Positions 24,403 to 63,415 of a stretch of DNA of 64,000 nucleotides are shown here, one piece after another (position 1 is the first letter of the stretch; every line of letters begins with the position of its first letter). The stretch comes from Phyto melanocephala (lineage: Eukaryota; Arthropoda; Insecta; Diptera; Rhinophoridae). Position numbers and translations under genes: made by a program. Below the pieces are notes generated by a model. It had not been told where the DNA came from. It made no database searches and saw only the letters and a program-made list of their open reading frames with translations. Where the stretch lies: contig OW799235.1 of NCBI GenBank assembly GCA_941918925.1, positions 46,193,701 through 46,257,700 on the forward strand. The letters are read 5' to 3'.

Positions 24403-27400
24403 GTAAGTTTTTAACAATTGTAAAATTAGACCCTCTTTAATAATTATTTTAGTAAAAATGTTCCAGATTATGGTGCCTTAAGAGAAAAACATGACTTGGG
24501 CTTTATAACTTTTGATTTGGAGACTAACTTAACAAGTTTGTTCAACTGGAATGTTAAGCAGTTATTCATTTTTTTGACTGCAGAATACAACACAGCAAAT
24601 AACGTGTTAAATCAAGTTGTCTTATGGGACAAAATAATACGCAGAGGTGAAAATGCTATACTTGATTTCAAAAATATGAACACAAAATATTATTTTTGGG
24701 ATGATGGAAATGGTTTAAGGTAAATATATTACACAATGGCGTTATGCAAACTGACTAAACTGAAATTAGATGTGCAATAACAATACAAAGCAGATGCTTG
24801 TACAAAACTTGGCCATCAATGTATTCAATTTAAGGTGACTGTCGCCATAACCATAGAAGCCAATTGAATTTTGGTTTCTTATGGCTAAAAGTATAAGGTG
24901 ATAGCAATTCGGACATAATTTTCCAAAAATATTTTTTTATATAAATTTTGACCATTGTTAATTGAAGAATTTAGAGAATGTATAAAATGGTGACATGGAA
25001 AGTAGCAGCTGATGAATTGAGTTTGATATACCATTGGCATATTGAGGGAGCTGTTTTTAATGCTTTTTACAATCTTTGTTAGTGTTCTTTGCAAATTTTA
25101 AATTTTTAGTACAGTTCTATTGTTAATTCTTAGTAAGCAGTTGTTTCTTGTATTGAGCTTGAGATCACTTTCTTTTATAAAAAATAGTTATAATTTTAGT
25201 TTCCGATTTTTCGCTACCACATTGGGTAGATATTAGAATTGTTCAAAAAACAAATTTGTTTTTTATAAAAAAGGCGGGAAAATAAAATTATAACTTTTAT
25301 AAAAGAAAGTGATCTCAAGCTCAATACAAGAAACAACTGCTTATATAAATTAAAAAGATCGAAAATATTCATTTGTTAATTCTTAGTTGTTATTTTTTCA
25401 ATGATAACTAAGGATTTTCCCTTTTACAGAATGTTTACACCATGTATAACAGTATACATACTGATAAAATATGGTTTTATTCTCATTTGCAAAAAAAAAT
25501 ATGGCTATATCTCTCATTTGGAAAAATTTTATATATGACCTTAACTCTCAATGATTGAGCAATAAGACCATTGTGGCTTTATCTCCCATTCAATTGAGCA
25601 ATAATGCCATCATGGCCTTATCTCACAAAGTATTAAAGCACCCGCCAAATTATGTTGTCCCGAGAACTAAATATGTTAGCAAAGTTTTAAGTTTGATCGA
25701 TGTACTGAATATATAAAAATTACAGTGGAATACTTGGCGTACTTTTCAGTTTGTATGGAAAAAGGTAAAAATAATAAAAAAAATAATATGCCAAAACGAT
25801 TTATTTAATATTTGGCACTCAAAATAAATTTTTGCAAAGATAGCAGTATTTATTATGAATGGTCGAATGGTCAGGTTGAGCACGTCAACCAAAATATTTT
25901 AAATTATCTCCGTACTGCCAACGAGGAGCCGACAGACTGGGATAGAAGTATACATAGCCTTCAATGGTCGATAAACTCGCAAGAGAATTCGACAACAGGT
26001 TTTTGTCCAAAAGAATAATTTATTAATTTTAACCCAATTAACGTTAAGCAGAATCAGTTTCTGACTGCTATACAAGATGACGTGGCTGCGGAAAATCCAA
26101 TAAACATCGACAGATAGCACGATTTGGATGTTCGAAACATTTAACAGGCATTGATAGCAAACATACTCAGCCTACAATATTCATATAGCGAGCAAATTAG
26201 AGCCTTGGCATAGTGGTCCGTATATGATTACCAAGGTACTCGGAAGAGACATATCTAAGTGAAGACATTTCCGGTCTCCAGATAACTAGTCGTATGTTTT
26301 TTCAATTTACAGTTTCGTTAAAATGAAAAGATGGTGCAGTGGCTAGCCTAAAATTGATAGCGATGGCGAAAAGGAAGTCGAGGACGACTTAAATACAGGA
26401 ATAACTGAGCTGTCAAGTTAAGAAAATACTGCCTTCGTATTTGATAAAACTCTGTTTTATTAAAACTGTGTAATTTTTAAATCTAACCAAAGAAAGAGAT
26501 AGTACCTTTGACGACACCATCGTGATAGGAATGATATGATTTTGAAGTGACGTTTCAGCCATTTGTAATGTGTCATGATCTGTCTTTTTTTTTCATTGTA
26601 TTCAGTAGTGCTTACAATTTTATTATGGAGATATATACACAAGAACAACGTTTGCAAATTATTCAGTATAATCGTCAAGTGTGCTCGCTATTCGTTGAAT
26701 TATTGAAAATTTTGAGCTTACATTTCTTTACATAATGTTAAAGTGCCAATAAGACACCTTAAAGCTGGATTCACCCATAAAATGTTAGTTCAGAACAAAT
26801 TTTTTTATATTGAGTTTGATGTTTTACTTTTGAGAGAGAGAGAGAGAGATTATTTTGTTCAGAAAGATTTTTCTTGAATTGGTTTAATTTTAATTCTTGT
26901 TCAGAAGTAACTGAATTGGGATGCCACTTTTTTGCAATATTTTGCATACACAAATATTTTATTTTCGATTTTTTTTTATAAATTTCTTTTGCAAACAAAT
27001 TGACTATGCACATCAATTAAAAATAATAATTTTAGTTTTCTCCTATCCGACATTTTCTTCACATATATTTTAATGAAATAATTTACGTTTGTATTTATTT
27101 ACATAGTTTGCTAGCGGTGCTGTCACTTTGTACAACTGTTTGCATTTTTATATTATATGGCAGCTTTATTTTTTCGGACAATTTTTCTTAAATGGGTGAA
27201 CCGCTCTGCAAAAACTTTCAGTAAAAAATGTTATTATCCGGAAAAAATTTTGTTCAGAACAAATGGGTGAGGTGAATTCACCTTAATTGACATTTTGGTG
27301 TGGTTTTTGGTCAGGTGGAATCATCAGTCCGTACTTCTTCCGAAACGAAGCTGGTAACATCGTTACTGTCAATGGAGAGCGGTACAAATCGATGACAATA

Positions 27401-30400
27401 AAATTGTTATGGCCGAAATTGAAAGAAGTTGATCTCTATAACATTTGGTTACAAAAAGAAGTTGCTACGTGCCACACATCAAAAGCGACAATTAAATTAG
27501 TGCGAGAACAGTTTTGAGATTCGATTATTTGAAGAAATTGTGATATTGAATGGCTTCCAAGAAGTTGTGATTTAACACCATTAGACTTTTTCTTGTGGGG
27601 TTATTTTAATTCATTGGTCTTTTGAAATAAAATACTCTCAAACATACAGCTTGATTTGGTGAAAAAAGTGCTCATTAAGTTGTAACATAAATAGTAGTTT
27701 AAAAATTACATATGAGTACACCGATAAAGAGTGCTGATGATAAAATCGTATCTGGTTTCGAAGATGCATTCCACTAATATCGTAATTGTTTTTCAATGAT
27801 CTTTAATGATTACATTTATTAAATTAAATAATGTTTTACGAAGTTTAATAATAGAAAAATTTACTTAAGCCAGAATAAATATTATCTTTATATATAAAAA
27901 TGAATACCTTTTTCCCTTGGTCACGGCATCACGCGTGAATGGCTGGACCGATTTCACTAATTCTTTTTTTGTTGTGTTTGTTATTATTAGGAGAACGTTC
28001 TTATGTAAGACAAGTAAGAACACTTTATTCGGCTGTGCCGAATCTTTTATACCCACCACCAATTTTGTGTACATTTAAAGGACAATATTTATTATTTTGT
28101 TAATCGCTATGGAACAATCTCTTTATAATAAAATATGTATCATTTTCTTTGTAGAGGGTGGTTAAATTTTAAGGGCCCATGTTGAAGGTGAACTACACCT
28201 AGTCTTAAAATTTGTTTTCAGCATTTCACTTGACATTTCTCAATCTCAAACTTACTCAATTTGATCCGTGGAAAGATACGCAAATGAGCAACGCTTTAAA
28301 GTTATTCAGGTTTCTTATAAAAATGGGCGTTCAAATCAAAATGCATTTTGTGCTCTTTGTAATTCTTTTGATCAACATAATCGTTCAAATTCGTCCACAA
28401 TCGGGAGAATTGTAACAAATATTTAAATTTCTGCAAAACAGGTCTGTATAAAATGTTAGAAAATCTGTGAATGCCTTCTTAGTGCGTTGAATGGGAACCA
28501 TTGCTGGTTTTTGTGATAGTGTGGCAAAAGAGCAGTCAACCTCGACTCATCATCATGCCCAACAATTGATCATCAATATTGTCATTAAAAATTTGGACCA
28601 TCAGATAGTGGAGTGGTGCCAAGGATGGGGGGGGGGGGTCATTTGGCCGATATTTTGTTAAATACATAATTGAACCATACAAATACTATAATTACAAAAA
28701 GAAATAATAATATCCTAAATAATTTGTGTTTTATTTAACTTCAATATCGGTCCTTAAAATTTAACCACCCTTTATAACTTCGATATGCTACTAAAATGCT
28801 TTTGTAAATGTAGTCTTTCAATGAAAGTGGGCGTGTCAATAAAGTTTCTGCTAATAAATACAACTTAGATATTTCAATATAGTCCTTTATTTTCCCAAAA
28901 ACTTTGTCAATAGAGAAATTACATGAATTTAAGATAAACCGTTATATGAGAGGTAGGCGTTAAAGTGGGCGTGTCACCTAAACTTTTTGGCACAACAATT
29001 ACATTGATTAGAAGGATATACGTAGCAAATTTCATCATTATACCTCTAATTTTGGCGGTTTTATGAGCTTTTAAATTTTATTAACGGTAGATAACGTGAA
29101 AAGTGGGCGTTATAGTAGGCATGTCAAAGTTATTTTTACGAATGAGTACAACTTAGGTGTGCCCTTTATCATTCCAAAATCTTTATTAATAGAGAAATTA
29201 TATGAATTTCAGTTAAAACGTTATATGGGAGGTGGGCGTGGCACCTTAATTTTCTGGCACAGTAATGATATTGCCTAGGGGGATATACGTAGAAAATTTT
29301 ATCATCATATCTCTAATTTTGGCGGTTTTATGAGCTTTTAAATTTCATTAACGGTAGATAACGTGAAAAGTGGGCGTTATAGTAGGCGTGTCAAAGTTAT
29401 TTTTGCGAATGAGTACAACTTAGGTGTTTCAATATAGCTTTTTATTATTCTAAAATCTTTATTAATAGAGAAATTATATGAATTTTAGTTAAAACGTTAT
29501 ATGGGAGGTGGGCGTAAAAGTGGGCGTGGCACCTTAATTTTCTGGCACAGTAATGATATTGCCTAGGGGGATATACGTAGCAAATTTTATCATCATACCT
29601 ATAATTTTGGCGGTTTTATGAGCTTTAAAATTTCATTAACGGTATATAACGTGAAAAGTGGGCGTTATAGTAGGCGTGTCAAAGTTGTTTTTGCGAATGA
29701 GTACAACTTAGGTGTTTCAATATAGCCCTTTATTATTCAAAAATCTTTATTTATAGAGAAATTATATGAATTTTAGGTAAAACGTTATATGGGAGGTGGG
29801 CGTAAAAGTGGGCGTGGCACATTGATTTTCCGTCACAAAAAAGCGTCTCACCAAAATAAAGTGTGCAAAATTTCAGAGTCGTACATTCAATTTTGTTGCT
29901 TTTATGACGTTTTTGTTTTTAAATATACCGAAAAATACACTGTGCGGTATAAATTTTCGTACATTTTGATCGATAACTCTTTTCCTAATTCATAGATTTA
30001 AGCGATTTTCGGGGACAACTATTCTTTTGACTCGATAAATATATATTCGGAGTTTCATGACTCTACGTTTATGCGTCTGGACACAATTCCATTTTATTCG
30101 ATGTGCGAAGGACACAGTTTTTTTGACCTACTCTTGCTTTACGAGCTATAACTCTTCCTAATATTCCGATATAGCCCATTTTCAATACTAAACAAACCTT
30201 GTCTATAAGAAAGATTCTGGCAAAATTTGAGCCCCCTAGCTTTTTCGGTGCGACCTCTATCGTGCTTTCAACAGACGGACGGACATAGCTAGGTCGTCAT
30301 CAAATCAAACCCTGATTCAGAATATATATACTTTATGGGGTCTAAAATGGATATTTCGATGTGTTATAAACGGAATGACAAAATGAATATACCCCCACCA

Positions 30401-36400: not shown

Positions 36401-39400
36401 TGTTAACAGCTCGTTCCAAAGGCTTGAGCGTTTTTACCGGCAAGCTAATGCCTGGGGCTTTTTAATTTCCCTCAGTGACCACCACAGCCGTCTCTGCACT
36501 CTTACCAGAGTCGTCAGATTCGGCTGGGATGTTCACCGCTGGAACCGTGGAGAGGGAGATGCCGAGGATAGCACTGGTAGGCCCGTAAGTTCTTTCGAAC
36601 TTCGCGACGCTCTGCCTATGCTTCCTCACCAAATGCCTCTCTCTGGCAGTAAACAGTTTTGGGTCCCTCTTGGCCATTTTATTAAAAAAGGCCAAGGAAG
36701 ACCTCGTACCATTCCTGGCCTTCCCTCCTTCGTTCGGCTTTTACCGTCCCGTGGTAACTCTACGGATGTTACCACTGCGTCCTGCCGAACTATGTTGGCC
36801 ACTCGATCTCATGATCCTGGGGGATAATCCTTTGAGTCAGCCCTCTCAGATTTTGGAGGATCCACCACTGAGCTCGAGGTAGGATCAGATATCATAGTGA
36901 TATCTAAATCCTCTTCCGAACTCAATGTTAAATCACCCAATTTCTAGGTGTTGCTAACCTCAAAGGATCTCCTGATAGTCCCAGGAGATCGTCCAATTGG
37001 ATCTGTGTCCGTATCTGCCCTTCCTGGTCCATAATAACCTTATGGATGTCCGTAAGGGCAGCGTCAAGACCCTGATCCGATTCAATACTTCGTAAATTTT
37101 TTGTTTTATCTAAATCCTCAATTTTGTTCCCACGAGTAGGCACGTAAAGGGTCGACCATCGCGCGCAGTGACGGCATACGCGGACTAGGCAACTATCAAT
37201 ACAACCGGCCCGTGCCCTAGCGCCGGGGGGAGCTGTTAGCGACTAGTTTCTTTAGCCACTAACTAGCCATACAGGTCCTCGGCACTCCTACCAACCACCT
37301 TGACCTTAAAAGTGCCCCCAGTTTATTTGGTCCACGAGAACCCAGAGGATTCTAGGGCTAGGTATATTGTACGGGATCGGAGCGATCCAGTTCTGGGGCC
37401 CTCACCTTAGTGCCTGGCACCGTCTGACCCGCTCAGACCCCCCACCCTATACTAAGTCCCCCCTATCCGCCACCTGGGGGCGCGTCCGATGGGAGTAAAC
37501 TGAGAAAAGACTCCACACGGATAACTGAAACTAGGCATAAGAGTTTTACGACAATGGAAAGTTTTTCTATTTCACATGGGGTTTTATGCTTCAAGCTTCT
37601 GGAGTTTGACAAAGACAAGAGGTGCAACAATCGCACGTTGGCTTTAACGAAACTAGAGCATGTGAAATTTTGGATACAATATATTATAGTATGTTTGACT
37701 AGTCGTTGTTACCATACCTTCTGTATGAAACACGAGCTTCACACTATGTTGAAGCTAAAAAGTCCATATTAGCCAATCCCGTCGCTGAGAATATGCGAGT
37801 CAGCATATTCCCAGCGATTACTTAATTCATTTAATGTTTACGTTGCATTTTAATATGCATTAGTATTAGTGTGTTTTAAGTTCATAGTTTTAAGAATTTC
37901 ATATTGTAAAATAATTAATAAAGAACCTTCATACAAAACAGTCGCATAAGCGGCTGTTATAATAAATAAATGTTGTTTTTATATTACAATATAAAGGCTT
38001 TTACTCTAACTTCAAACAAAGATGGCAGGATTCTAATCGTGCGAAGTTGTGATTTGAAAAGAAGAATGCAAGTTGGCTTGAACGCACATTTACAATTAAG
38101 TTTACTGAGGCTGAATGTTCTACCAGCTCTAAAATTGGTCGGCCACGTAAATTGTTTGAGGAGTGCTGTGATCACGCCAAACGATACAAAATGGATGAAG
38201 TACGTGCTATGTTTCCATACAAAGAACTCACAAAATAAAAAAACTAATAGTTATCTGCCCTTTCCTGTCTAGTCCTCTAGCTGGCATTATCACCCTCGGC
38301 AGGCGCCCAAATTCGACTCCAGTACCTAGATAATCCTTAGAGCCAGTCAAGCCCAGGCAATAACCGCCAGCGCTAATTTCGTCCAAGATCCGTGAATGAC
38401 TCTGCGTGAAATTTCCTAACAATCCTATGCTCCTGCCTGCCATTCCCCCTACATACTGCTCAATAGACAGAAGATGAAAAATAATACCCAGGGCTGCCTG
38501 AGGAGTACTTCTCGTGGCTCTCGTCATGCCGATTGAAACGCACCTCTGAGCCTTAGATAGAAGGTTCCTATGACTATCCAGCATCAATCCTTCTCACCAA
38601 ACACAGCATCAATGCCTCTCAGCAAACACAGCATCCATACGTAAAAATTGGTCGGACTACCGAAGTATACAGCCATCTCACCACTGACGACCGGAGTCTC
38701 CAGCTCTTACCATACAGTGTACCGAATTTCAAAACTCTGGGACCACCGTGTAAATTTTAGACATTTGAACCCTTTGAACAACAAATTAACTTAATACAAA
38801 AAACATGTTTTGTTTTCGCATACATATATCCGCGAATTCGCCTGATTATTCTAGGTTGTTGTCTATCTGAAAGCCAAATTTCATTTAGTTCTGTTCATTC
38901 GTTTTTGCGTGATTGAGTAACAAACATTAAAACATTCACATTAGTAGGATTAAATTATGAAAAATCATGAAAAGAGATAGAACTGTTTTTATTGCGAGAT
39001 ATATGTTAATTATATGTTATATTACAAAATGCATTTTTTTTTAACTTATGTTTATGTCCATCGTTGGATCATAGGATAATCCTTACCAATTTCATTCTGA
39101 AAATGCATAAATTTATACAATTATTTGTTTTAATTTTTAATGCTAATAACTTTTCGTTTCATGCTCTATTTCCGATCCTTACAAGTGTCCTCAAAATTCC
39201 ATTACATAGAGGTTATAATTCTGAAAATGATATGCTAAGAAGTTTTAAACTTTATTATCATATCACATTTTTTATTCTGATTTTGTATGTATAAAGTTTT
39301 ATTTGCACTAACAGAGAGCTTTAGGCGCTAGAATTCCCGCTAATAGTTAAACGTACTGGCAAGAATGCAGTTACGGTATTTAGATATAGTCGAAGGACCT

Positions 39401-42400
39401 TGGGCTAATCTGGTCGTATGGCATGGCAACTTCAATTATCACCTGCACAAAATGATTGTGAAGAATAATGTTGAAGAATGTGCCTTGAGGTGTGCGAGTT
39501 TCCGACAATAACTGGCAATAGACTTAATGCCACCGGCAAGCACACTTTGGTTGTGAGTGCTATGGGGGAAATTATTTTGGGGAAGATGCTGGCGATTACG
39601 AAGGACGCTGTGATGAGGATTGTGTATAATAATAAGTCTACAATTTGAAGTCATAATAGTATAGAGCAAACTCCTGTGGCTAGACGGAACTCGGTGAGGA
39701 CAGTGATACTTCTTCGGTATCCTTGTAATCACTGAGGAACGAAGGGCGTTGGAAAGGGACCTGTTAATATAAGAGGTCTGCTTTGGATTTCCCGTATATT
39801 TATATATAAATAGCAGCCCCGGCCCGCTTTGCTGGACCTATCACCCATTAAACAATTCGGCTATCTACTATTATATAAAAAAGTAAGTTTTTTTTGAATA
39901 TTTTGTTTCCATATGATATGAGTATTACATCTTCCATACAAAGCAAATCCAGATTTTTGTTATACCTATAATTGATATAGCATAAAAATTTTGTATGACT
40001 TGTTACAGTAGTATGTATGGGAGATGACAAACTCACTTTAAATTTAATGAAAAACTGTCCATAAGAACCATGTTTGAGCTTAAAGGTTTTTTTAAAGAAA
40101 AATTTACCAATTCGGTCTCGCCGTTATTTAGATATGCCCCAACAACTGTTGGGCTTCTATATTAGGTGCCATGCCCAATCTAAATTTTAAGAAAAACGGT
40201 ATGTTAGAATCTTACATGAGCTTGAAGAATTATTATAAGAAAAAATTAAACAAACCGGTTTGACCGATATCTGGATATGCCGAAAAATCTGTTGGTTTTG
40301 TATGGGAGGTGCCACGCCCACTTTAAGTTTAAGGAACATCTGTCCGTAAGAACCTTATTGAGCTTAAAGGATTATTATTAGAAAAAAAATAGCAAAATCG
40401 GTCTAGCCGTTCTCTAGTAAATGTTTTACGAGATTTTGTTTCTTGTAAAAGCTTTTTCATTTGATACCAATGTTGTTGGTGTTGAATGAGGTATATTTTT
40501 AAACACTAGATTTGACCTTAATATATCTAAATTAATTGTACGCCATTTTGGATTTTATGTTTTTTATAGTGTTCTCGGTTCTCTAAAAAAATATATTTTG
40601 TGTGCAAAATTTAAAGAAAAACACCGAAGCAGCAGTATTTTGGTGCTTTGTTTGTTGCGGGAGTAGTAGGTTGGGGGTAGTATAGTCTAACATATACTTC
40701 TGTTTACCCAGTTATACGTATTATGTGCAAGAACGCGCAGAGAAGCCGGCAGAGGCGTCGCAGCGAACGAAAGAGAAATTTTGCGTGAGGTTAACTTGAA
40801 CAACCATCAGGAGTAATTAATTGCCGACTGCCTCAGTTATTAGTGCCGATGACATGCGATAGAGTGATTAGCTCCTGCCCGAGTCCCAGTCTTGTTTTTT
40901 GTTTACTTTATTGAACCTGTAAGAAAAGAAGGTAAATAAGTAAATTGCTGAAAATAGTGGCACTATGCACTGTTGTCCAGAACACATAAAAATTACTAAA
41001 ATCAAATGTATACTAGCTGACCCGGTCCGTGTTGCTGGCCCTAAGCAAACATTAGTGTTGTATTTCCACACGATTTAACGAAATTTTCGTACATTAAATA
41101 AAAATCCATGGAATACCTTTCATAAAGTTTTTTTACATTAATTTATTTATTACTTCATCTTGAGGCCAGCGGATAGACAATGTTTTTTGTTTTTTTATTT
41201 GGTGTAAAAACGTATAAATTTTTTGACGTGCCAACTCGGGAGCAAGCCACATACAACTGGGCGTGTGAAAAACATAATTTTCCAAAATTAAGCCAGCAAT
41301 AGTCTTTGTGCTTTGTAGATGGTAATAGCAAATGCAAGACGCAAAGGGAATTGGAGCCGCTTAAATTGAAATGGTATATCGTTGGAAATTATCGGAATTC
41401 GTGGAATAAGTACGTCTTCGCCTTTGAATCTGCCACCGATGATTGTTGTCTCGATTAAAATTGGTGAACAGTTTTTGATGGTCAATCTGGTTCCGTTGCA
41501 TAACTTCGATGCGTTTAAGTTGAGAATAAGAATTACTGGTGATCCAACCTTTAATGTTAGTACATGCGGTGGCATTCCAGGTGGTTCCAATGAACTTAAA
41601 AATTCAGTGGGATAATTGACGGCTTGTTCTTCATCCATTTCTGTGTCGATCGATTTGTGTTTGATTAATTTGCCGGGCAGTTTCAATTAAATTTGCTCAT
41701 TGAGCTGTAAATAAACCGAAAACTCGGATTTTTGAATGCAACATTTCAAAGGTTTTAAAATTTTGATATTGAATCATTATTAACATAGGTTTTTTGTAAA
41801 TATCTTTAAAACTGCATAACCGATTTAAGATTTTGGAATCTCGTTTTGAAAAACATGACAACGGCTTTCAAAAAAAATAAAAAAAGCAAACAAAATAAAT
41901 AAATGTATATGCCATTGGTGGTGCAATATGAAAATTGGATTTTGCCACGCCCCTCCGCCCGCAGACCGAGAATCAAAAATCAGACTTCACAATGTCACCC
42001 GCCTAAATATTTTAAAGATTCCCTGAAAATTTCATCAAAATCGGGCCAGCCGTTTTGAAGTCCATACGTTACATACATACATACATCCTGTTTTATATAT
42101 ATAGATGTCATTGGTGGTGCAATATGAAAATGATTTTGCCACGCTCCTCCGCCCGCAGGTCGAAAATAAAAAATCAGACTTCACAGTGTCACCCGCCTAA
42201 ATATTCTGAAGATTCCCTAAAAATTTTATCAAAATCGGTCCAGCCGTTTTGGATACCATACGTTACATACATACATCCTGTTTAATATATATAGATTTGC
42301 CAAATGTATATATGTAAATGTATTTATTGCTTACATTTTTTTTATATGGAGTTTTGGAATTTTGGAGAAGTAGAGCACAGAGAGCCTCTCAGACCACCTT

Positions 42401-45400
42401 GTAAATCAATTTACTGTTTTGACAACGAAATCTTGCAAAATGTGAAAAAATAGTGGTATAAACCATATAGATTTTAATAAAGATTTTAAATCAAATCTAC
42501 TAGATTTCGCTTAGGTGCAAATGTAGTATAAAATGTATTAAACATATTTGTTATTGGTAAAGCGAAAATTGTACGTATAATGTGGTTGTAAAACTATTCC
42601 AAGGCATATCCATAAGGTACTCGTATCTGCTGACTGTTTTTTTTATAACAATTTATAAGCGTTTCCAACTTTTTTTAAAAGTCTGTCTGCATTTGTCAAA
42701 CTTAATTTTTTAAATTTTATTATACACAAGAAAGATGGTAAATCAACAGCATACACATTGTTATGAAGTATTGCCATGTAGGTATTCTGTTTCAACACTC
42801 CTCCTCAATGTGGATGTTGTTTAACAGAGCATTTGTCCAAGTTTCATCATACTAACAAAATTACAATGTTTTATTCTGGGTAAATTATTCGTCATGATGT
42901 CAGCGATCATATTTGATGTGGGACAATACACCAACTTCACCTCTTGCTTTTAAACCAATTCCCGTATGTGATGAAACCTTACATCAATGTGCTTGCTACG
43001 TTTATGATAAACTGGATTTTTCGCCAACTTTTGTGCACCTTGATTATCTATATTTAAAATTACGGGATTATCTTTCCAAGCGTTAACTTCGGCCAAAAGT
43101 CGTTTCATATATATTGCCTCTTTTGACGCATCTGAAGCTGCCATATACTCGGCCTCGGTGGTGCTGAGGGCAACTGATTCCTGGATTCCCATGAAACGGG
43201 ACAACCACCAAAGAAGAACGTGAAACCGGTATATGATTTTCTGTCTAGGGCGTTTCCTGCCCAGTCCGCATCTACAAATCCTTCGAGAATGCCACCACCA
43301 GGTTTATAAATCAGCTTCAAATCTCTTGTACCCGAAATATATATCAGTATATGCTTAAGTTTAGTCATATGTTGAACGTGTGGGTTTCGTTGAGCCATTT
43401 TGGATACTGAGTGTAAGATGTCTGGTCTGGTAGAGATACATAAGTGTGCCTACAAGTGATTGGTACTCTTGTTGATAAATTTTTTCACAATCAGCATCGC
43501 AGTTAACTTGATAACCAGCCTCTAAAGGTACTGCCATAGGTTTGCATTTATCCATATCATACTGTTTCAATACATCACGTATGTATTGACATTGGCTTAG
43601 TTTAATCATACCTGTTTCACTTTCACGTTCTATCTCTATTCCCAAGAAATGGTTTAGTACACCTTTGTCGTTTACCTCAAATTCATTTGAAAGTTGTTTC
43701 TTGATGTCTATAACTAAAGCCTTATTGCAGCATCCAATAATCAAATCGTCCACATATACTGCAATTAAAATTAGACAATTATCCTTCATTGCCTTATATA
43801 AACATGGCTCATTTTTACACGGAATGAAATCCATCTTACGCAGAACGCCATCCAGTCTATTATACCACTCCTTTCCACTTTGCTTCAAACCGTAAATAGC
43901 CTTATGTAAACGCAGAACTTTATTTGGTGAACTACTGTCAATAAAATGCGAAGGCTGTTGCATATAGATTTCATCCTGCAGACTACTATTCAAATAAGCT
44001 GTGCTTATGTCTATTTGGTGTAGATGCATTTTGTTTTCAACTGCTTATGCTAATAACAATCGATATGTTGCATAACGGACAACTGGAGAGAATGTTTCTT
44101 TGAAGTCAATACCGAATCTTTGGTCCTTTGACCACTAACCGTGCCTTATAGCGTTCAATTTCTCCGTTTACCTTCCTTTTTAGAGCATAAACCCATTTGC
44201 ATGGAATAGCTTTATGACCACTGGGTAAATCTGTCAAAGACCATGTTTTGTTCCTCTTTAAAGCTAGGAATTCGTCCATCATAGCCTTTTCCCAAAATCG
44301 TTTGTCTTTACACGACAGTGCTTCTACTATTGTTTGTGGTATGTTCTCCTTAATTGCAGCACACAATTTATTTTCCTTTATTTTTTCACTATAAATTTTC
44401 CTTGGTCTGCCAGGTTTTCCGCTACGAATCATTCTAGGTCTTCCTGGTCCGACAGTATTCTGTTCTCATTAAAACCCTTAAAACCGCTCATCACTATCAT
44501 CAGAGGTGGTGAAGCCCTCATCCTCTACTTAAACAGAAGGTTGGCAATCTTTGTCAACATCAACTGCACCTTTACGATTAGGTTCATTAACAATACTCGT
44601 AACATGACTGTCGCTTTGTTTTATATGTTGTTGTTTGTTTTTATCCAAACATATGGTTAAATACTCATCTGGCTCATGACTCCACGATTGATATCAGTTT
44701 GACTATCAAAACAATTTTCGTCAAAAAATACATCGCGCTGTTCAACAATTTTCAGTGTATCCTTATTAAATAGACGATAAGCTTTCGATGTTGTAGAATA
44801 GCCGACCATAATGTACTGCGTGCCTTTGGCTTCAAACTTAGATTGACTTGACGACTTTTTCAGTCCTACAGCGCACGAACCAAATGTTTTGAAATGTTGT
44901 ACATTGGGTTTTCTTCCATTCCACACTTCATATGGGGTTTTTTCTACTAGTTGTTTTGTAGGGCATCGATTTCGAGTATATACGGCAGTATTAACAGCTT
45001 CTGCCCACAAATACTGCTTAACACCTGCATGCACCATCATAGATCTTGCCATTTCAATAAGAGTGCGGTTAGCTCTTTCAGCAACAATATTTTGCTGCGG
45101 CGTATAGGGTACTGTCAACTGTCTGCTAATACCTTCTGATGTTAAGAAATCATTAAATTCGGAGTTAAAAAATTCACCGCCGCACAGTGGCGCCTTTTGA
45201 CTTTTTTCGTTGCAAAAATCATAGGGTAATTTTTCCAGTTAAATGTTAACATGTTTTTTTAAATATAAGTTTTTTAAATGTATCGCAAATACACATTTTT
45301 ATATACTTTTAATATTTAAATCTAAGTAAATTTATATTAAGTAACTAGTTTAACCCGGTGCGCTTTGCAATGCACATTGTTCAAATCCGAAAGTTTAGAA

Positions 45401-48400
45401 AAAAAAAAACTAATATAACATGTTAAACCGATATTAAATTTTTTTATTTCTATTACAGAAACACATTTTTAAATTATTTTTAATATTAATATATTTATGC
45501 TATAGATATAATGTTATTTATCTATATTATGTATATAAAAATCTATGTGTGTTTGTGCTTTAAAGACGGTTAAACGGCTGGACCGATTTCCTTGAAATTT
45601 TCAAAGAATCTTTCTGTATGTCTGGAAGGAACTATGGGCTATACTTTTGTTTGAAATTTTAAGTGGGCGGGGTGCCACGCCCTATTAAAGAATAAGTATT
45701 AAATATTATATATCACGAAAGTTAATGCAGCTAGAGTCTTCAAAATAGGTACGGTAAACTTTGACATCCACACGAACATTTGAGTAAAAAATGGGCGGAC
45801 TTGCAATAGTAGGCGTGGCCACATGAATTAAATACTAAAATTCGTATATTTGGAAAACGATATCGATTAGAGTGGTAAAATTTTGCAAGAGCAACTTTGA
45901 CACCCAAATGAACATTTAGGCAAGAAATGGGTGCATTATCAATAGTGGGCGTGGCACCTACCATATGAATTAAATACTAAAATTCGTATATTTAGAAAAC
46001 GATATCTATTAGAGTAGTAAAATTTTGCAAAAGCAACTTTGATATTTAAATAAACATTTATAGAAAAAATTAGTGCATAAACAATAGTGGGCGTGGCACC
46101 TACCATATGAATTAAATACTAAAATTTGGGGTAGCGAAGCACACTGGGTATTAGCTTGTTTAGTATATATTTTATTTAGCTAGAAAATTTGGTTTTTATT
46201 AGTTATTTCTCTTTGAAATAGTCATCAAGATTGGGAGCGTTATCTAATAGATTTAACATATCGGGGCTATAATTATATTCTTATGTCTTCGTGATGAAAT
46301 AAGTGGGTCTGAAGAGGCCGCCAACATATTGAAAAGGTCCGCATTCTGTCTAATCCGTTTGTTTTTGCATTCTTTGGCTTCTTCTGACAACTTTCCAATC
46401 GGTAGGCATTGATTTTCAATTAAACTTTTACCATGAGCCAAAATCTTATGAACCGTAGGAGTAAGTTTCTTCTCAGGGTACATTTGAGCTAAAAGTTGCG
46501 CAGTTTTTGATGCATAATCATCAAACTTTGGGCCATTTACCATTTCTCTAGAGTTTATAATATTTAGGATAACTCCCAACCCGTTTATAATATTATTGTC
46601 GACCCCAGTAATTCGGGCTGTTACGCGGACCGGATGATCCATAACATTCCAGTTTTACCTCTACCGATACTTAAGTAACCTTTACATTAGGTGACACTGC
46701 TTCTTTTTTGGCATATGTAATCTTTTTGTATCCAGGAAGAATACTCCCTTTGATTCTCTGCAGTCGATCTGTGCTTGCAAGTACCACAGCTTTTGTAATG
46801 TCGGACCTTGATTCATCTTTATCTTTTACAAACTTAAGACATAATGCTTCTGAAAGATGCGATTTAGATATATCTTTTGTGGCATTTTTAAGTCTACGTT
46901 TTCTTGTGTACTCAGAACACTCGTTTATAGTTTTTGCTGGTCTTCCTCTTTTGCTGTCAGAGGATCTATGTGGTTCTTCGATGTTTCTAAAAGTTGTAAC
47001 TCCATTTAGCCAGTCTGGGTTGTTTTTCATACATGCTTTTTTCGTACGGTGTGAGGTAAGCCATTTTTGTAATTGCTAGGAAAACGAAGTGAATTTTGCT
47101 ATGAACATCCATTTCGTGGTATCATGGTAGATCGTGTAGTTTTTTCACAATATTCAATTTAAATGCATTTTCATTATCTGAGTTTGTGAATAACTCCAAC
47201 AATTCTAAATTGGTAAATGACATTATCGCACTTTAAAATAAAATTGTACAAGTTCTGTTACTGATCACTAGTTTTAGAAAGTAAAAACTTAACTGGCTGC
47301 ATTATACAATTGCGGTTAATTTTGTACCCAAAGATTAAAAAAAAGGGTTTCAACTACCTAATTTGAGCAAAATAAAAATTAACTCGAATAAATGTATACC
47401 TGCAGTTTATATTTTATTCAGTATAAAAAAATGTTAAAACTACCTGCCTACTTTTATAACAGGTATTTTTAAATTGAAATAAATAAAAAATTGAAATAGT
47501 TATGCCTACCTGATTGGCAGAGCAAAATATTGCTTACTATTTAAGGAGAAGCAATAAAAATATGCAACAAGTAACTTTGGAAACCCTTTTTTATTTATTT
47601 TCACATTTTGCACACATATTTGTTACATTCTTTAAAAATTAGAAAAAAAATTTCTCGTTTTCGCTATGAGGTTGTAACAGTTTTCTTCTTATTTTACCTA
47701 CAGCGGCAACCTACGGCAGCTAAACTAAGTTAAATTATTTAAAGTATCATGTAGCAAATATGCTTAGAAAATATGGGCGAGAACATTTTTGACCATTTTT
47801 AGATATGCTCTATTTTATTTGTAAAAATGACCTAAATATAGGGTGTCTGAAAAGCGGCGACTGCCGAAAAAGTAGGGCATCTGCTAAACATTTTACTACT
47901 TCTTTTAATAAAAAACAAACATACCTTTAAAAAAATACCAAAAAAGTAGTAATCAAACGGCAATGTTTCTGACACTTTAATTCTAAAATGCATCTTTTTT
48001 TCAAGATCACCCTTTTTTGCTTTTTAAAAAATTGTCGATTTTGAGCAGCTCCACAAACTATAATTTTTATAAGATGTTTTTATTCATTTCACAAAATTTT
48101 GTCATGAAATTTTGTATTTTTGCCACGGGTTTTAGGAAAAGGCGCCACTGTGCGCCGTTGTCTGTTCTTAGTATTTTGATCTTATTGCCAGTTTGCCTTT
48201 CAACTTGTGCCTTGTATATTTTGAATTTTTCAAACACATCGCTCTTGCTTCTAATAAAATAAACAAAACACATCGCTCTTGCTTCTAATAAAATAAACAA
48301 AAATTATTCTTGACATGTCGTCAATACACGTAACAAAGTATATGGCACCACCAAGAGATTTTACTCTAAAAGGGCCGCAAACATCAGCGTGTAAAACTTT

Positions 48401-57609: not shown

Positions 57610-58620
57610 AAAAGTTTTGTTTGGTGAGAGGCATTGAGGCTGGATAGTCGTAGGAACCTTCTATCTAAGGCTCAGAGGTGCGCTTCAATCGGCATGACGA
57701 GGGCCACGAGAAGTACTCCTCAGGCAGCCCTGGAAGTTATTCTTCATCTTCTGCCTATTGAGCAGTATGTAGGTAGATTGGCAGGCAGGAACATTCTTAG
57801 ACTGAGGAAGCTCGGATTATTAGAAAATTTCACGCAGGGTCATTCGCGGATCTTGGGTGAAATTAGCGCTGGCGGTTATTGCCTGGGCTTGCCCGGCTCC
57901 ACGAATTATCTAGGAACTGGAGTCGATTTTAGGCGTCTGCCGAGTGTAATAATGCCAGCTAGAGAGGGCTAGACAGGTAAGGGCAGATTGTTTAGTGGTT
58001 TTGCTGTATGTTGGTCAGGATGGCGGTAAGAATAAGATTGAACCTGTCAGATATGTGCAGGCTGTGCAAGGATCCGGAGGAGTTGGAGACAGTTGATTAC
58101 ATTCTGTGCCAATGTCTCAGACTGCAGAATAGCTAGGTAGCAGATTCCTAGGCGAATTAGGGGATATCTTGGGCTGAGGACTCGAGAATCTAATAGGATT
58201 GTAATGGGATTGACCTGGCTTCGTGACACGAAACTAAGAACTGGTTGATTGTCACTCCAACATAAGCGGCAATTAAATGGCTGATGAGTTGGCAAGACAG
58301 GGCTCGGAAATGGTGTGTCCGGATCGGGTGAGGCGGTTAAGCCTCCATTGGTTTTCTATTTCGTTATGATCAGGTAATGGGTTCTGAGCGAGACTAATCG
58401 GGTCTAGAGTAACCGAACGGACTGCAGAGTATCACGCACGCTGTGGCCGATGCTCAGTAAGTCTTATTCGGATTTGCTTCTTGACAGGGGTAGGGTCTGC
58501 GTGAGAACTATAATAGCGATTATTACGGACCACTGTATGTTGTGCAGGATGGCGCACAGTGAGACAACGCCGGCATTAAATACAAGAAGTAATTGCAGAG
58601 TTCTGAAATTTTGCACAGGT
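57610..58620 (+). pseudogene. LOA-type LINE fragment (second family), scrambled 3' part
   Basis: RT thumb (57,634-57,972: LLSKAQRCASIGMTRATRSTPQ, LPIEQYVGRLAGRN) is followed by the C-terminal cysteine motif (about 58,045-58,130, NLSDMCRLCKDPEE) and only then by RNase H residues (about 58,275-58,310, MADELARQGSEMV). In an intact element RNase H comes before the cysteine motif, so the copy has been rearranged. Confidence 0.75.
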
Positions 58621-58659
58621 TACTTTTGAGACAATTCCAGTTAAAAAAAAAAAAAATTA

Positions 58660-58985
58660 AGAAAATTCGCCCACTTTTACGCCCACCTCCCATACAATCG
58701 AAATTTGTAAAATGCCGTATTGTCCGTAATACTTAAGGGATAACTTTAAATTTTGGTATACTTGAATGTTATATTGTTACAAACATTATCGGAATAAAGT
58801 TTTGGACTTTGGCCCACTTTTACCCCCATACAACCTCAACATAAAAAGTGCCATATTTTCTAAAATATTTTAGGTACAATCTTCAAATTTGATATTATTA
58901 TTATTTATATAATTTAAAATGTTTCATGCAAAAATTACAATAACACGCCCACTCTTACACCCACTTCCCATTAAAATGCAATAAA
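58660..58985 (-). repeat. Diverged units of the family A type
   Basis: CGCCCACTTTTACGCCCACCTCCCAT and later variants recur at about 58,668, 58,810 and 58,950. This is the inverse of GTGGGCGTAAAAGTGGGCG in the 28-30 kb element. Confidence 0.5.
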
Positions 58986-59935
58986 AAAGAAAAATTTTTT
59001 TCATTCTATCAATAATTTTTTAATATCATCATGGTATTCTAATTTTTTCAATATCTTTATTGCTATCGATCCAAATATCAGAAATTGCACTATAAAAAAT
59101 TATTGAATTATCCATGACCTTGTAAACTTTTTTTAACACTTTATATAAACTTGTATAAACTTGCACTCTCAAATATGTAGATTGTGAATTAAACATATAC
59201 ATACATACATAATTGCAATTACCGTTTGTTGATCAATAATATTTAAAACAACAACAATGTAATATTTTTTTACAGTTTGTTTTTAAAAAGTTTGTGAGCA
59301 CAATATAAAATATCAAACAAACAATTAAAAAAAAAAAAAAATTAAAATTTGTAAACATGCTATTGCATGCTAACATATGTACATACTTACGTATAGCGAC
59401 AAAATGTGCACGTTGCGTATTTTTTGTAGTTTTTTGTATGTTTAAAGTACTTTTGCAAACTTTTGCTATATGTCCTCTACTTTAAATGAAAGCTGAGACT
59501 TCAATCTTTCATTTGATATAAGTCTGCACCTAGGGCGAGGGGCTGCTCTATATTTCCTAGTCCATTGAAAATGCAAAATGTTAAATTTTTACACCACAAT
59601 TCTGTTGTAAAGAAATTTTTTTTTGTGTTTCTTTTTTTAAATTTATTTTTTTATCTACTCATTCTACAACAACTAAATTAATTAAAAAAATACTTTAAGG
59701 TTATATTTATTATGTATTTTTTTTATTGATAAGCTTTTGAATATTACATATTGAACCAACATATTTCAAGCGCGTTAGCATACCTCAACTTTGACTTGCT
59801 CTAGACCAAAAAGTAATGAAGTTATGAATCTCAAATTTCAGGAAATTGTTACTCATATATCTGTTAATATACTGTGAAAATTTTATCCAAATTGGACGAC
59901 ACGCCAAAAACTATTTTTTGCCGCTGTTACTTTAG
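58986..59935. other. AT-rich sequence, no gene recognised
   Basis: Poly-A and poly-T runs only; nothing supported. Confidence 0.5.
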
Positions 59936-59939
59936 AGCT

Positions 59940-60180
59940 GTCTCACTGTGTGGCGGTAAGAATGGGACTGAACCTGTCGGATATGTGCAGGCTGTGCGAG
60001 GATCCGGAGGAGTTGAAGGCAGTTGAGAACATTCTGTGCCAATGTCCCAGACTGCAGGTTGAAATGGCTAGGTAATGTATTCCTACGCAAATTGGGGGAT
60101 GTCTCGAAAATCTGTGATAGAATTCGTAATGGAAATGACCTGGTTCGTGACGTGAGACTAAGAATGGGTCGATTGTAGGG
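59940..60180 (+). pseudogene. LOA-type LINE C-terminal fragment
   Basis: VRMGLNLSDMCRLCEDPEEL and ENILCQCPRLQ give the C-terminal cysteine motif, nearly identical to the stretch at 58,025-58,130. It is a second, separate copy. Confidence 0.75.
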
Positions 60181-62584: not shown

Positions 62585-63415
62585 TTCACTATAGAAAGGG
62601 AATGTCAAATTTCTACCCTCTATATCTCAGAGACTTCTTGGCCGATCTTGTTTAAAAATTGCGTCTAAGCTACTATAGGACTAACTTTGGTGCAAATTTC
62701 ATCCCGATCGGAAGACATAGGTTTCAAAAGTTAGTACACTTGAAGCAAAATTACCCGTATACGTATATAAATGATTAAATAAATGAATAAATTCCCACGT
62801 TTAACATATCACCATTGCTGGCAATATTGTTCTCGTATATCGGTGACTTTGTCGGGACACACGTGACCGAAGAAAATCGGGCATATTTGGCAATTTGTTT
62901 GTTCGACGTTGCACACTGGGGATTTTTGTATGGATATGAGGAAAAAATATATTTGTAAAAAAATGTAGTGGTTTCATCACAAATTTAGTTTAATTTATAT
63001 AGTAATACACAAAAGTAATCAAAATAAAGAAAGTTAGAGAAATGTATATCGTTACCTACAATTTAAAAAGCCCTAACTACAAAAAAATTTAAATGATTTT
63101 TTTAATTTATTACTTATTTTAAATCTATTTTTAATTTATTATTCTAAAAGAGCATTAACTTCGACGCTAGTAACACTATGCTTTTTCTGCCTAATGAAGA
63201 AGTCAAATGTGAGATCATGGGATCTGATATTACCATCATTCGGTGCGTAATATCTACGTTTGTGGCAATTCGACAGGATTTTTAATTTTTTTAATATTAA
63301 AGTAATAAGGTATATATTTATGTATAAAGTTAAATATTTATAATAACAGCGTATACACGTACATTTTAAATGTATTATGATCATAAGAATTTTTGGTAAT
63401 GTCATGTCATATAAA
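62585..63415. other. No gene recognised
   Basis: A Helitron-like phrase (GGCCGATCTTG, TTTCATCCCGATCGG) occurs at 62,640-62,715; otherwise AT-rich sequence. Confidence 0.4.

Follow-up and report, generated by a model that had tools for sequence, protein, structure and literature searches.

A defective Transib element with CACAGTG ends and a nonamer-like block in the genome of the fly Phyto melanocephala

A transposable element in the fly Phyto melanocephala bears on the question of how vertebrates came by recombination signals whose spacers have two lengths. The window, the whole stretch of 64,000 nucleotides that was analysed (contig OW799235.1, positions 46,193,701 to 46,257,700 of the forward strand), holds a Transib element, E1, whose two ends look like such signals. 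Does the likeness reach past the heptamer to a distal block, and what kind of element carries it?

The element and its insertion site

E1 occupies window positions 45183-48152 (2,970 bp) between CGCCG repeats. Its parts are given below; residue numbers are those of P0001, a transposase relative used as the reference for the remnants.

45178..45182, no strand: left target-site duplication (TSD) CGCCG, which fits the Transib target CGNCG
45183..45189, plus strand: left heptamer CACAGTG
45190..45211, plus strand: left 22-bp spacer, of which the first 9 bp, GCGCCTTTT, are common to both ends
45212..45219, plus strand: left nonamer-like block GCAAAAAT
45529..46155, no strand: 627-bp insert of tandem repeats of about 142 bp, also in the copies L045 and L039
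46209..46280, minus strand: transposase remnant, residues 638-661 (tblastn)
46283..46624, minus strand: transposase remnant, residues 502-629 (C-terminal catalytic part) without 591-604
46647..47069, minus strand: transposase remnant, residues 53-237 without 163-206 (tblastn)
46938..46946, minus strand: GRP motif of the N-terminal NBD-like region, in E1's own frame, counted from the frame start at 47075
47065..47223, minus strand: transposase remnant, residues 1-53 (tblastn), with one stop and a frame change at residue 53
48116..48123, minus strand: right nonamer-like block GCAAAAAT
48124..48145, minus strand: right 22-bp spacer
48146..48152, minus strand: right heptamer CACAGTG
48153..48157, no strand: right target-site duplication CGCCG

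A preliminary description had read both ends as CACAGTG, 22 bp and GCAAAAAT plus one base, flanked by CGCCG. This reading is confirmed with zero mismatches at 45183-45219 on the plus strand and at 48152-48116 on the minus strand; the base after the block is C on the left and A on the right. The first 16 bp, CACAGTGGCGCCTTTT, are the same at both ends. At positions 17-25 the ends are unlike at 9/9 bases, and they then match again over GCAAAAAT. When the subterminal DNA was shuffled 20,000 times, an in-register run of at least 8 between positions 17 and 60 turned up in 59 of the shuffled sequences (P 0.003). The arrangement of heptamer, 22 bp and block is no rarity when up to 3 mismatches are allowed: the window has 6 occurrences against 3.55 expected. 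The pair pattern of a 5-bp TSD and CACNNTG facing CANNGTG and the same TSD, with the first 12 bases fully matching, appeared in 0/300 window shuffles; without the 12-base condition, at least two pairs appeared in 5/300. The real window has two pairs that include the 12-base match, E1 and a second element, E2. When the flanks of E1 (20-25 bp each) are joined, they read KILRTDNGGEFFNSE of a Copia integrase, the host sequence that E1 interrupts, and E1 is therefore a clean insertion.

The coding remnants match the Helicoverpa zea Transib transposase (PDB 6pqn, E 5.9e-23). The proposed match to the C-terminal catalytic region of RAG1 thus holds in substance, but the direct match is to Transib, and the Pfam RAG1 model reaches only E 0.074 and 11.6 bits, below its cut-off of 25. 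The Pfam scan, which covered five of the E1-window frames, gave no model above its cut-off for the two remnants of E1 or for 7 relatives. The C-terminal frame matches Transib and no other transposase family; the proteins match Transib and, more weakly, RAG1, and another superfamily is rejected. A search for Transib in viral and bacterial collections found none; one match, L001, was false and looks like a phage DNA polymerase. E1 is a known kind of element, correctly read from its sequence. The preliminary description was silent on the badly broken coding region and on the second element at 58555-59950.

Transib ends across the genome and the role of the distal block

The 739.75-Mb assembly contains 179 + 162 = 341 exact CACAGTGGCGCCTTTT ends, and the reversed pattern occurs 0 times; the E1 family probably numbers more than a hundred copies in this fly genome. 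Ends of the family were picked by their exact first 16 bases, and the 112 that were extracted, nearly all from contigs C1 and C2, comprise 97 distinct ends. Exact GCAAAAAT at 22 bp is kept in 44/58 left-type and 29/39 right-type ends (73/97 together), so the conservation in other copies on which the preliminary description had staked its reading is found. The flank is CGNCG in 71/97 distinct ends, and the TSD is identical in 13/21 end pairs.

Divergence from the consensus was profiled in a gapped alignment because indels inflate the distal positions of an ungapped one. At left ends it is 0.044 in the spacer (positions 17-29), 0.039 in the block, 0.070 at 38-60 and 0.123 at 61-90; the corresponding values at right ends are 0.075, 0.038, 0.088 and 0.111. 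The outer 37 bp are the better conserved part of these ends, but on the left the block is not distinct from the spacer, and within the family it is not clearly the more conserved of the two. The E1 family is too young for the block-versus-spacer test alone to decide, and the evidence for the block from comparing families is stronger than that from conservation within the family.

In this genome an exact CACAGTG is nothing unusual: CGNCG-CACAGTG-(A/C/T) occurs 698 times, the reversed pattern 25 times. With these sites and the 341 E1-type ends, exact CACAGTG loses the distinction that the preliminary description had given it. About 100 CGNCG-CACAGTG places were listed, and 40 were examined, chosen by the next base and by pairing, with the nonamers unseen. 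A GCAAAAAT-like block with at most one mismatch is present at 22 bp in 10/10 right ends of family A and in 0/8 of its left ends. It is found in 4/4 T2 ends (at 21 bp), 2/6 C-type ends (one at 13 and one at 23 bp), 0/6 T1 ends, 0/1 T3 ends and 0/5 ends outside these types. The block lies within one mismatch at 21-23 bp in 3/6 non-E1 end types, with P about 2e-6, or about 2e-5 by our own arithmetic if the 5 unassigned ends are further types; both values assume independent end types and use a 21-23 bp range fixed once the data were known.

Family A includes the second element in the window:

58006..58130, plus strand: paralogous empty site of E2, 111/125 identical across the junction
58555..59950, no strand: E2, second Transib-type element (family A), with TSD TGGCG, ends CACAGTGAGACA and no recognisable coding
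59914..59921, minus strand: right-end block of E2, GCAAAAAA, at 22 bp; the left end is without a block

E2 shares 96-98% identity with L160 and L161 along its length. It has no match among 125 Transib proteins and is a putative Transib, assigned solely from its ends and TSD. Elsewhere in the window, a reading of CACAGTG at 29944 as a promoter match was dropped: an identical end borders CGCCG at a different place, in L105, so that the motif probably marks one more Transib end. The CACAATG motifs paired at 24732/25575 lack TSDs that match and were attributed to chance.

The family C end, CACAGTGCTCTGTCCC, occurs 44 times in the genome, and 20/44 ends, including 6 pairs, were examined. The TSDs are identical in 6/6 pairs (5 CGNCG, 1 AGTCG). 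In 5/6 pairs, one end reads CACAGTG-22 bp-GGCAAAACT and the other CACAGTG-12 bp-GGCAAAACT, with at most one mismatch; the sixth pair is 11/12, with one of its spacers shortened. Of the 20 ends, 12 have a spacing of 12 bp, 7 of 22 bp and 1 of 11 bp; with GCAAAACTA taken as the block, 12/22 becomes 13/23. Past the 10-mer, similarity drops to 12/35 in the one pair compared. The exact 12-bp form, CTCTGTCCCATAGGCAAAACTA, has 22 occurrences in the genome. A 5-kb element of this family, L159, carries a Transib transposase remnant matched by 112/125 proteins (best 46-51%), and L162 and L163 have no remnant matching the 125 Transib proteins. Three single ends have no convincing partner within 4-4.5 kb; the one candidate, for L136, ends in CACATTG and has a TSD that mismatches at one base. 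With the same 10-mer at a spacing shifted by 10 bp and similarity falling right behind it, family C shows the distal block as a unit separable from the spacer.

The nonamer of the vertebrate signal (RSS) is the contact of the RAG1 nonamer-binding domain. An AT-hook-like GRP and a basic segment, as in that domain, are present in E1 and its relatives. GRP stands in 25/25 rows of alignment A1, whose relatives were chosen before the motif was noticed, and in 96/114 transposases as well as in E1; the other rows of alignment A2, which includes E1, were picked mostly among GRP bearers. The nonamer-binding domain of RAG1 carries GGRPR (PMC6941560). In such a two-part Transib end, the heptamer would serve as the cleavage site, and the A-rich GC-AAAA block at 22 bp would contact the N-terminal, AT-hook-like GRP domain of the transposase. 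By analogy with RAG1, binding of the block can be inferred, and a contact with the GRP domain is most likely.

A nonamer-like role of the GCAAAAAT block is likely. It is improbable, though still worth weighing, that E1 is a Transib whose GCAAAAAT is an AT-rich accident kept by recent descent, the outer 16 bp being sufficient. The low contrast between block and spacer within the E1 family would fit such an accident, as would the blockless ends of family A (left), T1 and T3 and the slight nonamer similarity of H. zea Transib ends described in PMC8289069. It accounts poorly, however, for E1 ends that disagree at every one of positions 17-25 and then agree over the block (P 0.003). The recurrence of the block in 3/6 other end types (P about 2e-6, with independence assumed and a post hoc range) also argues against it, as does the family C 10-mer, found at both 12 and 22 bp, with similarity falling right after it (12/35, one pair).

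Shared deletions and movement in trans

Relative to P0001, E1 lacks residues 163-206, 238-501 and 591-604 and has frame changes and stops. The Transib triad has been given as D126, D225 and E436 (PMC6941560); placed by this and by an alignment, the two Asp of the DDE triad would fall in the 238-501 gap of E1, and the Glu region appears to be kept. E1 is without a complete DDE triad and is a non-autonomous member.

The copy L045, which has flanks unrelated to those of E1 and its own CGCCG duplication, lacks residues 163-206 and 238-501 at the same residues and shares the 627-bp insert with E1. The insert is found in L039 too, where the match resumes at residue 502. The insert is absent from seven other copies compared, and the breakpoints are equal to within about 5 bp. 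Since the two main deletions and the insert of E1 are also found in L045 elsewhere, a defective subfamily has moved in trans, and we hold with high confidence that E1 is a defective Transib mobilised in this way.

That E1 went in as an autonomous element and then decayed in place, its deletions being later damage, is very improbable. Some damage is indeed specific to E1: residues 591-604, kept in L045, are lost, and about 125 bp are gone beside the left end relative to L045, the terminal 41 bp being intact. The breakpoints and insert shared with L045 between unrelated flanks, and the likeness of L039, nevertheless speak against decay in place. The main deletions of E1 predate its insertion, and the losses of residues 591-604 and of about 125 bp came later. 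The idea that E1, or some relative of it, has become a RAG1-like host gene by domestication has next to no probability: RAG1 itself came from a related element (PMC4411706), but E1 keeps its ends and TSDs, exists in many copies, has stops and frame breaks and lacks the catalytic core. Among 103 genome matches to P0001, moreover, the 21 best-scoring all contain at least one stop, the later stop-free ones being partial.

For the mobilised, defective E1, a transposase made by another Transib copy would bind both ends. The cut would fall beside the CAC in each heptamer, the chemistry being that of the H. zea Transib, for which a flank hairpin and a blunt transposon end are described (PMC6941560). 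By cut-and-paste, E1 would then enter a CGNCG target, here in the Copia integrase, duplicating 5 bp. This target is named for Transib in PMC4735498 and PMC5704228.

Spacer classes and comparison with known systems

One fly genome thus holds a series of Transib ends: 22/22 (E1), 12/22 (family C) and 22/none (family A). RSS-like Transib ends, consensus heptamers, spacer classes, GRP and the target have been published (PMC8355894, PMC8289069, PMC7204232, PMC4411706, PMC6941560, PMC9435367, PMC11844651, PMC4735498, PMC5704228), as have symmetric and asymmetric 12/23-like ends (PMC8355894, PMC9435367). No description of the Transib families of this genome was found among the literature matches, mostly the top-ranked ones. 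What is new is the genome-wide setting, with exact CACAGTG common and with ends of three kinds (22/22, 12/22 and one-sided) in the same genome.

Both spacer kinds are found together here, each with the exact vertebrate heptamer, in copies alike enough for base-by-base comparison. They offer matched natural substrates for asking whether a RAG2-less transposase favours unequal spacers, and they make a useful point of comparison for how antibody-gene shuffling arose. A tentative and rather doubtful extension is that the asymmetric ends are obligate partners, so that a RAG2-less transposase would obey helical-turn pairing via GRP and the 12/23 rule would predate RAG2. If true, this rule would be a transposon property older than RAG2.

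The closest known system is Transib of the H. zea type (PDB 6pqn/6pqx), with a homologous transposase, CAC heptamer ends, a 5-bp TSD and the CGNCG target. Its ends are said to have little or no nonamer similarity (PMC8289069), whereas E1 has a clear A-rich block; E1 further differs in being internally deleted. Transib families, among which Drosophila Transib5 and Anopheles Transib2 and N1-N3 are named, have symmetric 20-22 bp spacers or, in a few cases, asymmetric 12/23 spacers (PMC8355894). E1 fits the symmetric type (22/22) and family C the asymmetric type (12/22). Compared with the Drosophila and Anopheles families by description, both kinds occur here in one genome with exact CACAGTG, and family C has an identical 10-mer at both spacings.

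The vertebrate RSS (12-RSS/23-RSS) shares the heptamer CACAGTG and an A-rich block one or two helical turns away, and some Transib ends are identical to the RSS consensus (PMC6941560). Its nonamer is ACAAAAACC, whereas the E1 block is GCAAAAAT(C/A); the left GCAAAAATC agrees with the nonamer at 7/9 bases and the right GCAAAAATA at 6/9, the A-rich core being common. With spacers of 22/22, E1 has no 12- and 23-bp pair within it. The ends of E1 are transposon ends with TSDs, whereas the RSS forms gene-segment borders. ProtoRAG, a RAG-like transposon, resembles E1 in its RAG1-type transposase, CAC heptamer and 5-bp TSD; it differs in its CACTATG ends, 27/31-bp spacers and GCCATCTTG (PMC8289069).

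Copies of the E1 family elsewhere in the genome

Several copies of the family of E1, the defective Transib element in the window, change frame near residue ~53 of P0001, a related transposase used for numbering. These are L032, L033, L038, L043, L045 and E1 itself, whereas other copies read through this position, which suggests that the six descend from a common defective lineage. Two further ends of the family, L025 and L026 (G000:C1:66886148 and 66890199), lie in opposite orientation ~4 kb apart and share an identical 10 bp of flank and an identical 60 bp of end; this arrangement suggests an inverted duplication.

Transib fragments and a probable Transib end in the window

29908-29944, minus strand: CACAGTG, 21 bp and ACAAAAACG, flanked by TACCG
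37915-38235, plus strand: N-terminal Transib fragment that carries a GRP motif; 66 of the 125 Transib proteins compared match it
63153-63281, minus strand: short C-terminal Transib fragment, matched by 3 of the 125 (E 3e-4 to 1e-3)

The first of these is probably one end of an additional Transib family, since a similar end, CACAGTGTATTTTTCGGTATATTT, occupies a CGCCG site in locus L105. No partner end was found for it, and a search for intact ends of the fragment at 37915-38235 found none.

Repeats and nested sequences

28826-29968: four copies of a ~288-bp tandem repeat rich in GTGGGCGTGG
45529-46155: 627-bp insert in E1, with tandem repeats of ~142 bp
48232-48299: perfect 34-bp tandem duplication within the Copia element interrupted by E1

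Short stretches of the E1 insert, which may be Helitron-like from its appearance, resemble window 41900-42250 in reverse orientation. A 30-bp piece of the ~288-bp repeat recurs in E2, the second Transib-type element of the window. L161, which belongs to family A like E2, contains a nested open frame of 265 aa, a candidate Tc1/mariner transposase by its appearance.
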